IMG/VR virus record: IMGVR_UViG_3300001372_000009
Location: 1 to 31,126 of that record
Length of the DNA: 31,126 nucleotides
Direction: 5' to 3' (one strand)
From: a virus
The notes beneath the pieces are model-generated. The model was given only the letters and a program-made list of their open reading frames with translations. It did no database searches and was not told where the DNA came from. This document shows, piece after piece, positions 2,678-5,766 of this stretch (positions within the stretch are counted from its first letter, which is position 1; each line of letters starts with the position of its first letter). The position numbers were made by a program, and so were the translations under genes.

Positions 2678-2980
2678 ATGAACGCTGAATACCCGCAATT
2701 CTACCGCAAAGGTGGCCTCTGCATGAAGCGCGAGAGCGACACCACCACCCTGGATGTCATCATTCCAGAGCCAGGAAAGTACCGGCCAAACTGCCTTCCG
2801 GAAACAACCGCATACCCCTCGAAAGAAAGGCTGGATGCTGAAGTGAGCAGGATGGAAAAGGTAGATGAAGACGTCTATGAAAGCTACCTCGCCACCTACT
2901 TCCAAACTGCAGCTGAAGGACGTGCAAAATTAAATCATCGCCGCCAACACAGATTTGAGAAAGGAGTGATGGCAAGATGA
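2678..2980 (+). CDS. Small hypothetical phage protein
   Basis: A 100-aa soluble, charged protein starting MNAEYPQFYRKGG. The frame stays open upstream to 2564, but that part is the repeat-rich AT gap, so I place the start at ATG 2678, after the repeats. The protein has a proline-rich middle (IIPEPGKYRPNCLPET) and a helical, charged C-terminus (RLDAEVSRMEKVDEDVYES). No domain is recognised. It overlaps the next gene by ATGA, so the two are probably co-translated. If the repeats are an operator, this would be the first gene they control. Confidence 0.6.
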   Translation: MNAEYPQFYRKGGLCMKRESDTTTLDVIIPEPGKYRPNCLPETTAYPSKERLDAEVSRMEKVDEDVYESYLATYFQTAAEGRAKLNHRRQHRFEKGVMAR

Positions 2981-3459
2981 CTGATATTTTCAATGAGTCA
3001 AGCGCAAAGTTCACGCCCGATAATAAGCATCGGCTTTATTTATATCGCCGATGGAAGATTACTCGTCCATCAGCCATGGTGATAGGCCTAAACCCATCCA
3101 AGGCAGACGCCTTCGATGACGATCAGACCATAGGCTTCGTAAAGAGAGTGTTGAACTTTAATGGCTTCGGAAGTTTCTACATGGTTAATCTCTATACCAT
3201 GATCACGCCATACCCTTCTGAGCTGATTGCTGATAACAATTTAGATTACAATATCCTATTGTGGAAGGAACTGTCACAGCAAGTTGATTCTGTCATCTTC
3301 GCATGGGGAAGTTTTAAAACCGATGGACGCGAGAAAATTGCAGAAGATCTATTTCCGAAAGCACTTTGCTTCAATCACCTAAAGAACGGTGCTCCGCGCC
3401 ATGCAATGTATTTACCACAAGCAACAACACTTAAATCTTATCAATTAACCAAAAACTAA
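2977..3459 (+). CDS. DUF1643 family protein
   Basis: A 160-aa protein with the hallmarks of DUF1643: VIGLNPSKADAFDDDQTI near residues 31-48 (the family's N-P-S-x-A-D...D-x-T motif), GFGSFYMVNLYTMI near 63-76, SVIFAWGSF near 108-116, and an APRHAMYLP region near the C-terminus. DUF1643 proteins are common in phages and mobile elements; their biochemical role is not established. The gene overlaps its upstream neighbour by four bases and lies 2 bp before the first DGR target, so it is probably in the same early transcript. No nuclease or binding role can be assigned from sequence alone. Confidence 0.8.
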   Translation: MTDIFNESSAKFTPDNKHRLYLYRRWKITRPSAMVIGLNPSKADAFDDDQTIGFVKRVLNFNGFGSFYMVNLYTMITPYPSELIADNNLDYNILLWKELSQQVDSVIFAWGSFKTDGREKIAEDLFPKALCFNHLKNGAPRHAMYLPQATTLKSYQLTKN

Positions 3460-3461
3460 TT

Positions 3462-3917
3462 ATGGAAACACTAAAAATTAAGATCCCGAAAGGGTATGAG
3501 GTAGATAGCTTCGACAAGCTATCTGGTGAAATCAAGTTCAAGGCGAAGGTACCACAGAAAATCACTGACCGGATTAAGACTGTCGAAGACGTCGTTAAAG
3601 AATTTGGATTCAGTATGGCTGGGTTTGAAGAATTTACCGAAGGTCGATCGGATGATGAGAAGGCCTATATGATTTTGGTAAGGCTCGCCAAAGTACTCAA
3701 CGAAGGCTGGGAACCTGACTGGAGTAATTCAAACGAATACAAGTACTACCCATGGTTTGAAATGAAGGGTTCGTCCGGCTTTCGGTTCCTCGGCAACGAT
3801 TCTTGGGGTACGTTTTCGCTTGTCGGCTCTCGCCTTTGCTTCAAATCAAGAGAGCTCGCCGAGTATGCAGGCAAGCAATTCGAAGATGTGTATCGCAAGT
3901 TCATGGTCATAAACTAA
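3462..3917 (+). CDS. DGR target protein 1 (variable protein)
   Basis: A 151-aa protein with an invariant N-terminus (METLKIKIPKGYEV), a helical middle (DEKAYMILVRLAKVLNEGWEPDWS, split here at residues ~65-88), then a diversified patch at residues 103-127: GSSGFRFLGNDSWG, TFSL, VGSRLCF. The patch is variable repeat VR1. After it comes an invariant helix-like tail (ELAEYAGKQFEDVYRKFMV). The patch matches the template repeat at every non-A base and differs at 16 of 20 template A positions. Residues differing from its paralogue are N/H, S/L, G/R, T/A, F/A and L/V. The fold is not obviously the C-type lectin or Ig fold usual for DGR targets. It resembles small proteins I associate with Bacteroidota phages; function and ligand are unknown. 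Confidence 0.85.
   Translation: METLKIKIPKGYEVDSFDKLSGEIKFKAKVPQKITDRIKTVEDVVKEFGFSMAGFEEFTEGRSDDEKAYMILVRLAKVLNEGWEPDWSNSNEYKYYPWFEMKGSSGFRFLGNDSWGTFSLVGSRLCFKSRELAEYAGKQFEDVYRKFMVIN
3767..3840 (+). repeat. DGR variable repeat VR1
   Basis: A 74-bp segment that aligns without gaps to template 4334-4407. All 54 template non-A positions are identical. Of the 20 template adenines, 16 are replaced and four are retained (template 4362, 4363, 4366, 4377). Similarity stops at TTTGCT on the 3' side, and upstream of GGGTTCG on the 5' side. Confidence 0.93.
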
Positions 3918-3924
3918 TCGTCAA

Positions 3925-4305
3925 ATGAAAAATCTAAACCAGCTAAAAACGTTTGAAGGCGCTTGCAAGGTCGAGGGTCTTGATCCGAAAAAAGTGATTC
4001 CAAATTTCAGTTGCTATCCTGCACAGGACAGGAAATCAATGATTGCGCATGCCAAGCTTGTGATCATTGTGCGCGCTGCAAACAGGCTTGCAAATAATGG
4101 AGAATTATGGGTGCCAGATTTTGATGATAATAAATGGAAATATGAGATCTGGTTTACTAAGGGTTCGTCCGGCTTTCGGTTCCTCGGCCACGATCTTTGG
4201 CGTGCGGCTTCGGTTGTCGGCTCTCGCCTTTGCTTTATCTCGTCGGATGTAGCCAGGTACGTTGGTGAAAAGTTTATCAAACTTTATAACGAGTACCTAC
4301 TATGA
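3925..4305 (+). CDS. DGR target protein 2 (variable protein)
   Basis: A 126-aa paralogue of the preceding gene, starting 7 bp after it. The N-terminus (MKNLNQLKTFEGACKVEG) is shorter and diverged, but the order is the same: a helical segment, a PDFDDNKWKYEIWF stretch matching PDW...KYYPWF of the paralogue, the variable patch (GSSGFRFLGHDLWR, AASV, VGSRLCF; residues ~79-103), then an invariant tail (DVARYVGEKFIKLYNEYLL). The patch differs from the template at 18 of 20 A positions and none of 54 others. Its stop overlaps the ATG of the template-spanning small frame (ATGA). Two targets served by one template in tandem is a known but less common DGR layout. Confidence 0.85.
   Translation: MKNLNQLKTFEGACKVEGLDPKKVIPNFSCYPAQDRKSMIAHAKLVIIVRAANRLANNGELWVPDFDDNKWKYEIWFTKGSSGFRFLGHDLWRAASVVGSRLCFISSDVARYVGEKFIKLYNEYLL
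4161..4234 (+). repeat. DGR variable repeat VR2
   Basis: A 74-bp ungapped match to template 4334-4407 with all 54 non-A positions conserved and 18 of 20 A positions changed; only those matching template 4363 and 4366 stay A. VR1 and VR2 differ from each other at eight positions, all at template adenines and all in the central half. Their outer substitutions are shared, so the flanks descend from a common ancestral variant or are under selection. Confidence 0.93.
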
Positions 4306-4460
4306 ACGATCCTGGCTGTGCGATGGTTGAGCGGAGTTCGTCCGGCTTTCAGTTCAACGACAACGATAATTGGAATACGAATTCGAATGTCAGCTCTCAC
4401 CTATGCTGTAATCATATTAAATCGTCGCAGGCCATGCCACATTTTAAAGGCAAAAAATAA
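4302..4460 (+). CDS. Small open frame spanning the DGR template repeat
   Basis: A 52-codon frame begins at ATG 4302, overlapping the stop of target 2 as ATGA, and runs through the whole template in the same reading frame as the variable repeats. Its middle reads SSGFQFNDNDNWNTNSNV, the asparagine/aspartate-rich peptide expected of a template rich in AAY codons. It ends ...HFKGKK then TAA at 4460. It may be translated, or it may be the remnant of a third target gene whose variable end became the template. Coding status is uncertain; the open frame is seen directly. Confidence 0.4.
   Translation: MNDPGCAMVERSSSGFQFNDNDNWNTNSNVSSHLCCNHIKSSQAMPHFKGKK
4334..4407 (+). repeat. DGR template repeat (TR)
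   Basis: A 74-bp template with 20 adenines, most of them in AAC/AAT codon positions, lying between the second target gene and the reverse transcriptase, the usual place for a DGR template. The RNA from this region (roughly 4306-4523, up to the RT start) should be the substrate of reverse transcription; no structure could be computed here. All observed differences from the two variable repeats sit at its adenines. Confidence 0.93.
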
Positions 4461-4523
4461 CGTCAACAAATCTGAGGCGCTGGTATCTCCGGAGAAGGCG
4501 ACTTATGAAAAGCAAAGCAACCA

Positions 4524-5483
4524 ATGAAACGAATAGGCAACATTTACGAGCGCATCACCAGCCTGAGCAACTTACAACAGGCGGACGAAAAGGCCCAAAA
4601 GGGCAAGTCCGGCCAGTATGGTGTGATGCTTCACAACCGTAACAGAGAAGGTAATCTGCTTATCCTGCAGGATCTGCTTCAGAGTAAGACCTACCGCACG
4701 TCCACATACGACATATTCAACATCTACGAACCAAAGGAACGGGTAGTATACAGACTTCCATTCTTTCCCGATCGTATTGCGCATCATGCCATAATGAACG
4801 TGCTCGAGCCAATTCTGGTCGATACTTTCACAGCAGATACCTACAGCTGCATCAAATCGCGTGGCATACATTTACTGTTGCGCCGCCTCAAACGAGACCT
4901 TAAAGACGCCAAAGGCACCCAGTATTGCCTGAAGCTTGACATAAAGAAATTCTATCCCAGCGTAGACCACGACATTCTGAAGGGACTACTCAGAAGGAAA
5001 TTTAAAGATCCTGACCTGTTGTGGCTCCTGGATGAGATCATTGATAGTGCGCCAGGGCTACCCATCGGAAACTATCTGAGCCAGTATCTCGCTAACTTCT
5101 ACCTGGCATATTTCGACCATTGGCTGAAGGAGCAAAAGAAAGTGAAGTACTATTACCGGTACGCCGACGATCTTGTTGTTCTCCACTCCGACAAAGCGGC
5201 GCTTCACCAGCTGCTCGTTGAGATCAAGCAATACCTGAAGGACCTCAAGCTCGAGGTAAAAGACAACCACCAGGTATTTCCGGTAGCGGCACGCGGCATT
5301 GATTATGTTGGGTACGTGTTTTATCACTCGAACATCCTTATCCGGAAGCAGATCAAAAAGAGCTTCGCCAGGAAGCTTCACATAAACCCTGACCATCCGT
5401 CAAAGGCATCCTATCTCGGATGGCTCGGTCACTGCAACGCTAAGCATTTAACGCATAAACTATTGGGCAATGAACAATTTTAA
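4524..5483 (+). CDS. DGR reverse transcriptase
   Basis: A 319-aa RNA-dependent DNA polymerase of the retroelement class. Visible motifs: LDIKKFYPSVDHD near residues 138-150 (first catalytic aspartate), GLPIGNYLSQYLANFYL near 178-194, where SQ replaces the QG of group II intron RTs as is characteristic of DGR RTs, RYADDLVVL near 211-219 (catalytic YADD), and a thumb region GIDYVGYVF near 262-270. The C-terminus SYLGWLGHCNAKHL is also DGR-like. There is no maturase, endonuclease or protease domain. It would copy the template RNA with errors at adenines; the cDNA then replaces a variable repeat. It overlaps the next gene by 14 bp. No Avd gene is recognisable next to it. Confidence 0.92.
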   Translation: MKRIGNIYERITSLSNLQQADEKAQKGKSGQYGVMLHNRNREGNLLILQDLLQSKTYRTSTYDIFNIYEPKERVVYRLPFFPDRIAHHAIMNVLEPILVDTFTADTYSCIKSRGIHLLLRRLKRDLKDAKGTQYCLKLDIKKFYPSVDHDILKGLLRRKFKDPDLLWLLDEIIDSAPGLPIGNYLSQYLANFYLAYFDHWLKEQKKVKYYYRYADDLVVLHSDKAALHQLLVEIKQYLKDLKLEVKDNHQVFPVAARGIDYVGYVFYHSNILIRKQIKKSFARKLHINPDHPSKASYLGWLGHCNAKHLTHKLLGNEQF

Positions 5484-5766
5484 GGACTTCAATATCAAAC
5501 CGAAAATCAATGCCTTTGTGGGTGAGAAGATCCAGGTACAGAAACTGTTCAATCTGGAGATAACGATACTTGCCTTCAAGATCGAGCCTTCGAAGCAGAA
5601 AAAAGGCACGGAATTGCTCACGCTACAGATCGAAAAAGCAGGCGAAAAACGGATAGTCTTTACCGGATCTACCGTCATGATCGATCAGATCAAGCGGGTA
5701 CCAGACGAAAAGTTTCCATTTTTTGCCACCATAAGAGGAGACAACGATTACTACGAATTTACATAA
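5470..5766 (+). CDS. Conserved-looking hypothetical phage protein
   Basis: A 98-aa protein beginning inside the RT 3' end (14-bp overlap). It starts MNNFKDFNIKPKINAFVGEK and continues with alternating strands (NLEITILAFKIEP, LLTLQIEKAGEKRIVFTGST, FPFFATIRGDNDYYEFT). The all-beta look resembles small OB-like, possibly nucleic-acid-binding proteins of Bacteroidota phage early regions, but this is only a resemblance. It could belong to the DGR operon through translational coupling or simply follow it in the early transcript. Confidence 0.65.
   Translation: MNNFKDFNIKPKINAFVGEKIQVQKLFNLEITILAFKIEPSKQKKGTELLTLQIEKAGEKRIVFTGSTVMIDQIKRVPDEKFPFFATIRGDNDYYEFT

Follow-up and report, generated by a model that had tools for sequence, protein, structure and literature searches.

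The window, by which we mean the whole stretch of 31,126 bases that was analysed, is an entire virus record of IMG/VR (IMGVR_UViG_3300001372_000009). It encodes a primase, an S49-type head maturation protease, an endolysin and a terminase, and the truncated end of a tyrosine integrase lies at its right edge, a gene content which points to a temperate tailed phage as the probable source. The target genes described below have relatives in Bacteroidota genomes, including Apibacter, Elizabethkingia and Dyadobacter. Megablast comparison of 25 kb of the window with phage records gave no match, and no near-identical relative of the phage itself was found. The subject of this article is a diversity-generating retroelement (DGR) in this phage, made up of two tandem target genes with one variable repeat (VR) each, a template repeat (TR), a structured spacer, a reverse transcriptase (RT) gene and a small ORF behind it (Table 1). 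The sequence-only reading had placed a complete DGR with two target genes at 3462-5483; the DGR and its two targets stand, but the end at 5483 does not, as the accessory ORF extends the cassette to 5766. Immediately 5' of target gene 1 lies a gene for a DUF1643 protein (2977-3459), retained in one fetched relative only (L114). Elsewhere in the phage, the segment 26859-27691 of the opposite (minus) strand codes for two proteins, one with a TM2 domain and one an outer-membrane beta-barrel, which are perhaps lysogenic-conversion cargo.

Table 1. Features of the cassette, in window coordinates
Feature	Position	Strand	Details
Target gene 1; encodes a variable protein of 151 aa with no Pfam match	3462..3917	+	Holds VR1; phrog_11581, E 3e-23, unknown function
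Variable repeat VR1	3767..3840	+	16/20 A and 0/54 non-A differences from TR; IMH part from ~3825 (family alignment)
Target gene 2; 126-aa paralogue of target 1 minus its N-terminal part	3925..4305	+	Holds VR2
Variable repeat VR2	4161..4234	+	18/20 A and 0/54 non-A differences from TR; IMH part from ~4219
Template repeat TR	4334..4407	+	Randomised core 4351-4387 (16 A); IMH* from 4392
Putative structured 3' part of template RNA, Rfam RT-17-like	4430..4524	+	RF03020 match and covariation
DGR reverse transcriptase, 319 aa	4524..5483	+	SQ in motif 4, YADD; RVT_1, 1e-21; phrog_1423, 7e-117
Probable DGR accessory protein, 98 aa, pI 9.2	5470..5766	+	OB-like model; overlaps end of RT gene by 14 nt

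The 74 bp of TR contain 20 adenines and 54 other bases. When both VRs are pooled, 34 of 40 adenine comparisons and none of 108 non-adenine comparisons differ from TR (Fisher p ~1e-27), and our recount is thus identical to the counts on which the presence of one template and two variable repeats had originally been claimed. The similarity to TR stops abruptly beyond the repeat ends. Neither strand of the window holds a further copy of the non-A pattern of TR (over 60%), and there are no additional VRs and no second TR within the window. An unbiased scan for repeats differing only at adenines, which recovered the annotated TR/VR of BPP-1 as a positive control, returned the same set of repeats in the window and similar sets in nearly all relatives.

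Not all of the 34 differences should be read as products of diversification. We aligned 158 TR/VR pairs from the family on their conserved GSR codons. In the core, from -42 to -5, the main A sites show all four bases whereas non-A sites almost never differ, and the IMH at the VR end is distinct from the IMH* at the TR end. Three A sites of TR beyond the core are fixed in the VRs, as G at position 0 (145/149), as G at +7 (132/132) and as T at +11 (118/121). The adenine differences at the equivalent window positions 4392, 4399 and 4403 are family-fixed differences between IMH and IMH* and not random products. Position 4335 lies at the 5' boundary; A and G are the only bases in that column, in few relatives. 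Together these four positions, which the family either keeps fixed or does not clearly diversify, account for 8 of the 34 differences. The total given earlier therefore holds, while the randomised core, with the IMH/IMH* and 5' boundary sites set aside, scores 26 of 32.

The 16 adenines of the core form six AAY codons and four codons with a single A, which together can encode about 3e9 variants of the protein; changing A to N never yields a stop codon. Just 3' of VR1 or VR2 we found no stem-loop of classical shape and no GC-rich one; an AT-rich inverted repeat of 7 bp lies 35 nt past VR2 and is absent after VR1. In BPP-1 the inverted repeat after the VR is important but not strictly required (PMC12875486).

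The RT gene follows TR directly, with the SQ and YADD motifs that the sequence-only reading had described; motif 4 reads LPIGNYLSQ, and both SQ and YADD are invariant among 18 aligned RTs. That reading had also expected a profile search to place the enzyme with DGR RTs, and the best match in the PDB is indeed the BPP-1 DGR RT (8ub7, E 2.5e-58), far ahead of the retron-type and group II RTs that come next (4e-24). Our RT tree includes DGR RTs only, so it is no test of the clade against other RTs. The enzyme is 63-80% identical to those of the 80 IMG/VR relatives retained, and 50-55% identical to its closest counterparts in crAss-like phages.

Across 30 relatives the spacer that separates TR from RT is conserved and forms two main helices in the consensus, with compensatory changes in 11 of 14 consensus pairs. 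The covariation amounts to 72 cells, compared with 22 in shuffles and 7-17 in slid controls. The full Rfam model RF03020 (RT-17) aligns to the window with 30.2 bits (E 0.003), under its gathering score of 40.4, which is exceeded in 6 of 10 relatives. When the window RNA is folded alone together with TR, its stability is not above that of shuffles. We read the RT-17-like element as the presumptive 3' part of the DGR template RNA, like the BPP-1 spacer (PMC12875486). In four relatives an unrelated small ORF is located between TR and RT (L005 5486-6001, L008 5481-6001, L012 5529-6001 and L013 3136-3528), and these loci lack the motif of the second RNA helix, GCGTTGGTA.

Judged by these features, the element is of a known kind, a lineage-3-like DGR without Avd from a widespread lineage. 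It shares with lineage 3 of Wu et al. 2018, as summarised in PMC7290462 on crAssphage LMMB, the order target-TR-RT, the absence of avd and the sequence SRLC in the IMH at the end of the VR. The crAss targets are large tail-collar fibres encoded in a structural cluster, in contrast to the small tandem proteins of the early region found here, and the gene for the 98-aa protein is missing from the crAss cassettes examined. Adenine-only change between TR and VR, IMH and IMH*, a DGR RT and a spacer RNA between TR and RT are also found in BPP-1, which differs in that avd precedes TR and that the single target, Mtd, has a C-type lectin fold. The DGR of the archaeal virus ANMV-1 (PMC4372165) has, like the window, a small basic ORF (AJP62065) directly 3' of the RT gene, and the product of this ORF is homologous to the 98-aa protein (profile E 2.5e-21). 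Its large target, adtA, adjoins tail genes, unlike the targets in the window. The ANMV-1 figure labels an Avd ORF, and the text leaves open which ORF is meant (PMC4372165).

Our main reading, to which we assign a probability of about 0.93, is that this is a DGR of a temperate Bacteroidota phage which diversifies two small proteins by means of the RT, a template RNA and an accessory protein. A transcript starting at the end of target gene 2 would cover TR and the spacer, and its 3' part would fold into the RT-17-like structure and bind the RT together with the 98-aa protein. The cDNA would be copied from TR with random bases inserted opposite A and would replace the matching core of VR1 or VR2, ending sharply on the 3' side immediately before the IMH. 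TR would stay fixed while the two small proteins of the phage are altered at about 10 residues, in a single loop that looks exposed. At the sequence level this scheme draws on the adenine-only pattern, the TR that is fixed among relatives, the IMH boundary, the covarying RNA, and the accessory gene with its fusions to RT. We infer in addition that an RNA-protein complex forms, that the accessory protein replaces Avd and that the targets bind a variable partner. As a DGR, the element adds another member to a large known lineage; the points worth following are the accessory protein and the location of the targets in the early region.

The two targets are 39% identical in alignment. Homologues bearing VRs occur at 90 loci, usually two and sometimes three in tandem, with two VRs at 66 loci and three VRs at 14 (redundant contigs included). 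Two targets are found in ~13% of DGR cassettes (PMC10743442), and two target genes are therefore not unusual for DGRs and are common in this lineage. The family members are 120-160 aa long and have no Pfam family, the C-type lectin families included, no clear transmembrane segment and no tail or fibre domain; apparently the targets are small soluble proteins. The structural model of the target has a pLDDT of 88 overall and ~63 in the VR, being confident outside the VR. A Foldseek search with this model gave no match in the PDB and only uncharacterised phage proteins in BFVD. In the window a basic target is paired with an acidic one, which does not hold as a rule across the family. Target-family genes with VR-like variable loops and with no TR or RT within the fetched flanks were observed at L103, L104, L105, L108, L124, L126 and L127; long extensions at the C-terminus are present in those of L103 to L105 and L108. 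Two more distant homologues, L110 5365-6222 and L111 5752-6396, lack a VR and share an NEGWEPDW motif; they perhaps represent the non-diversified ancestral family.

What the targets do for the phage is where the strongest competing explanation arises, namely that they are receptor-binding tail proteins of the usual kind and that only their genes stand apart from the tail module. We give it somewhat less than an even chance. Viral DGR targets are mostly tail proteins (PMC8144416), a tail-collar fibre is the target of crAss-like relatives of the RT (PMC7290462), and the last 27 columns of the VR align weakly with tail-type DGR targets (hhalign, 83%), which is in line with the class CLec3 that PMC7290462 reports for lineage 3 VRs. 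The size of the targets and their lack of a tail or fibre domain argue against a tail protein, as does their setting: in ~38 relatives the large flanking ORFs encode mainly transposition ATPases, primases, helicases, RecT-like proteins and exonucleases, and there is no tail family among the top 25 neighbour families. An early or intracellular role of the targets is plausible because replication and transposition genes, and no tail family, flank them. If the targets do act inside the infected cell, phage DGRs would serve more than a change of host range.

The second feature that sets this cassette apart is the 98-aa protein, which is likely a DGR accessory protein in place of Avd. Its homologues lie 3' of the RT gene at ~101 of 111 RT loci (loci partly redundant), whereas at about ten RT loci tblastn found no free accessory gene. 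The structural model (pLDDT 91) has the strand order bbb-a-bb of an OB fold, a five-stranded barrel whose helix lies between strands 3 and 4, and its Foldseek matches, which are weak (best E 0.015), include OB-fold domains of nucleic-acid binders (RPA, HIN). No Pfam family covers the protein, and no Avd-type Pfam match was found among the neighbouring ORFs; since about one DGR in four lacks a homologue of the accessory gene (PMC7290462), the absence of Avd is no bar to membership among DGRs. A DGR-linked protein of Wu et al. without Pfam or CDD entry, mentioned in PMC10053308, may be the same as this family. Two other ORFs were considered as members: bbp4, the small ORF behind brt in BPP-1, is unrelated to the 98-aa protein, and comparison gave no support for the crAss ORF behind the RT.

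It could be argued that the 98-aa ORF is a common phage early gene that merely lies beside the DGR, the cassette being situated among replication and recombination genes where small nucleic-acid-binding proteins are common. We consider this improbable, because when the family was queried alone in 396 Bacteroidota genomes all five matches, four of them new, adjoined a DGR RT, and because homologues also follow the RT in the archaeal viruses ANMV-1 and vir525 and the accessory domain is fused to the C-terminus of the RT in Bacteroides phage BT-TP2 and gut phage MT835549, each with its own TR/VR pairs. By comparison, the remaining neighbours in the window are retained in few relatives. The RTs of BT-TP2 and MT835549 group together, so the fusion may have a single origin. 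The fusion genes of these two gut phages are those at L115 4008-5378 and L154 2498-3802.

Returning to the accessory protein, the helper of this lineage seems to differ from that of the textbook DGR system, and if its role is as proposed, DGRs that are said to lack Avd have a different conserved partner of the RT. Taken together with the targets, this leads to a joint interpretation that we offer tentatively, at odds clearly short of even: the lineage would use an OB-like, nucleic-acid-binding accessory protein instead of Avd, common to phages and archaeal viruses and in some cases fused to the RT, and would also diversify small soluble early proteins, not receptor-binding tail proteins. Ligands of host defence or regulatory proteins are, with the same reserve, candidate roles for such targets. 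Among the neighbouring ORFs no defence families were found beyond generic RT models.

Variation among relatives bears directly on the adenine-only signature, which the sequence-only reading had regarded as specific for a DGR and from which it had predicted VRs that vary only at template adenines and a TR that stays fixed. Three pairs of related phages behave in this way (pooled Fisher p 3e-25), and together with the Fisher test within the window they support the signature. Loci L013 and L014 are 99.7% identical over 2257 bp, and all six differences fall on TR-A sites of the single VR compared. L032 and L033 have 25 differences in 11,134 bp, of which 11 fall on TR-A sites of VR1; the non-A sites of VR1 and the whole of TR are free of differences, and the other 14 form one distant tract. 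In L095 and L098 there are 23 differences at TR-A sites of two VRs and three elsewhere in 4.7 kb. As no near-identical relative of the window phage was found, we infer from its kin that its own DGR is very probably active. The alternative that the element once diversified both genes and is now a dead remnant in this phage can appeal to the lack of variants of exactly this phage that would display current activity; we regard it as very improbable, given that the RT, target, RNA and accessory frames are all intact, that the catalytic residues of the RT are conserved, that the complete absence of non-A differences gives no sign of decay and that related lineages are active. Chance, adenine-biased damage or gene conversion between the targets, which as paralogues are expected to share some sequence, can practically be dismissed as the origin of the adenine-only pattern in view of the Fisher test in the window, the abrupt loss of TR similarity outside the repeat and a sharing of core bases between VR1 and VR2 of the same locus that is only slightly above that of unrelated pairs (0.356 vs 0.311). 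Given the same slight excess, we reject the rewriting of both VRs by a single cDNA as the usual course. In three relatives extra VRs of the same TR were observed at a distance of 1.5 to 5 kb (L092 2487-2564, L068 369-456 and L091 7959-8021), one of them positioned downstream of the RT.
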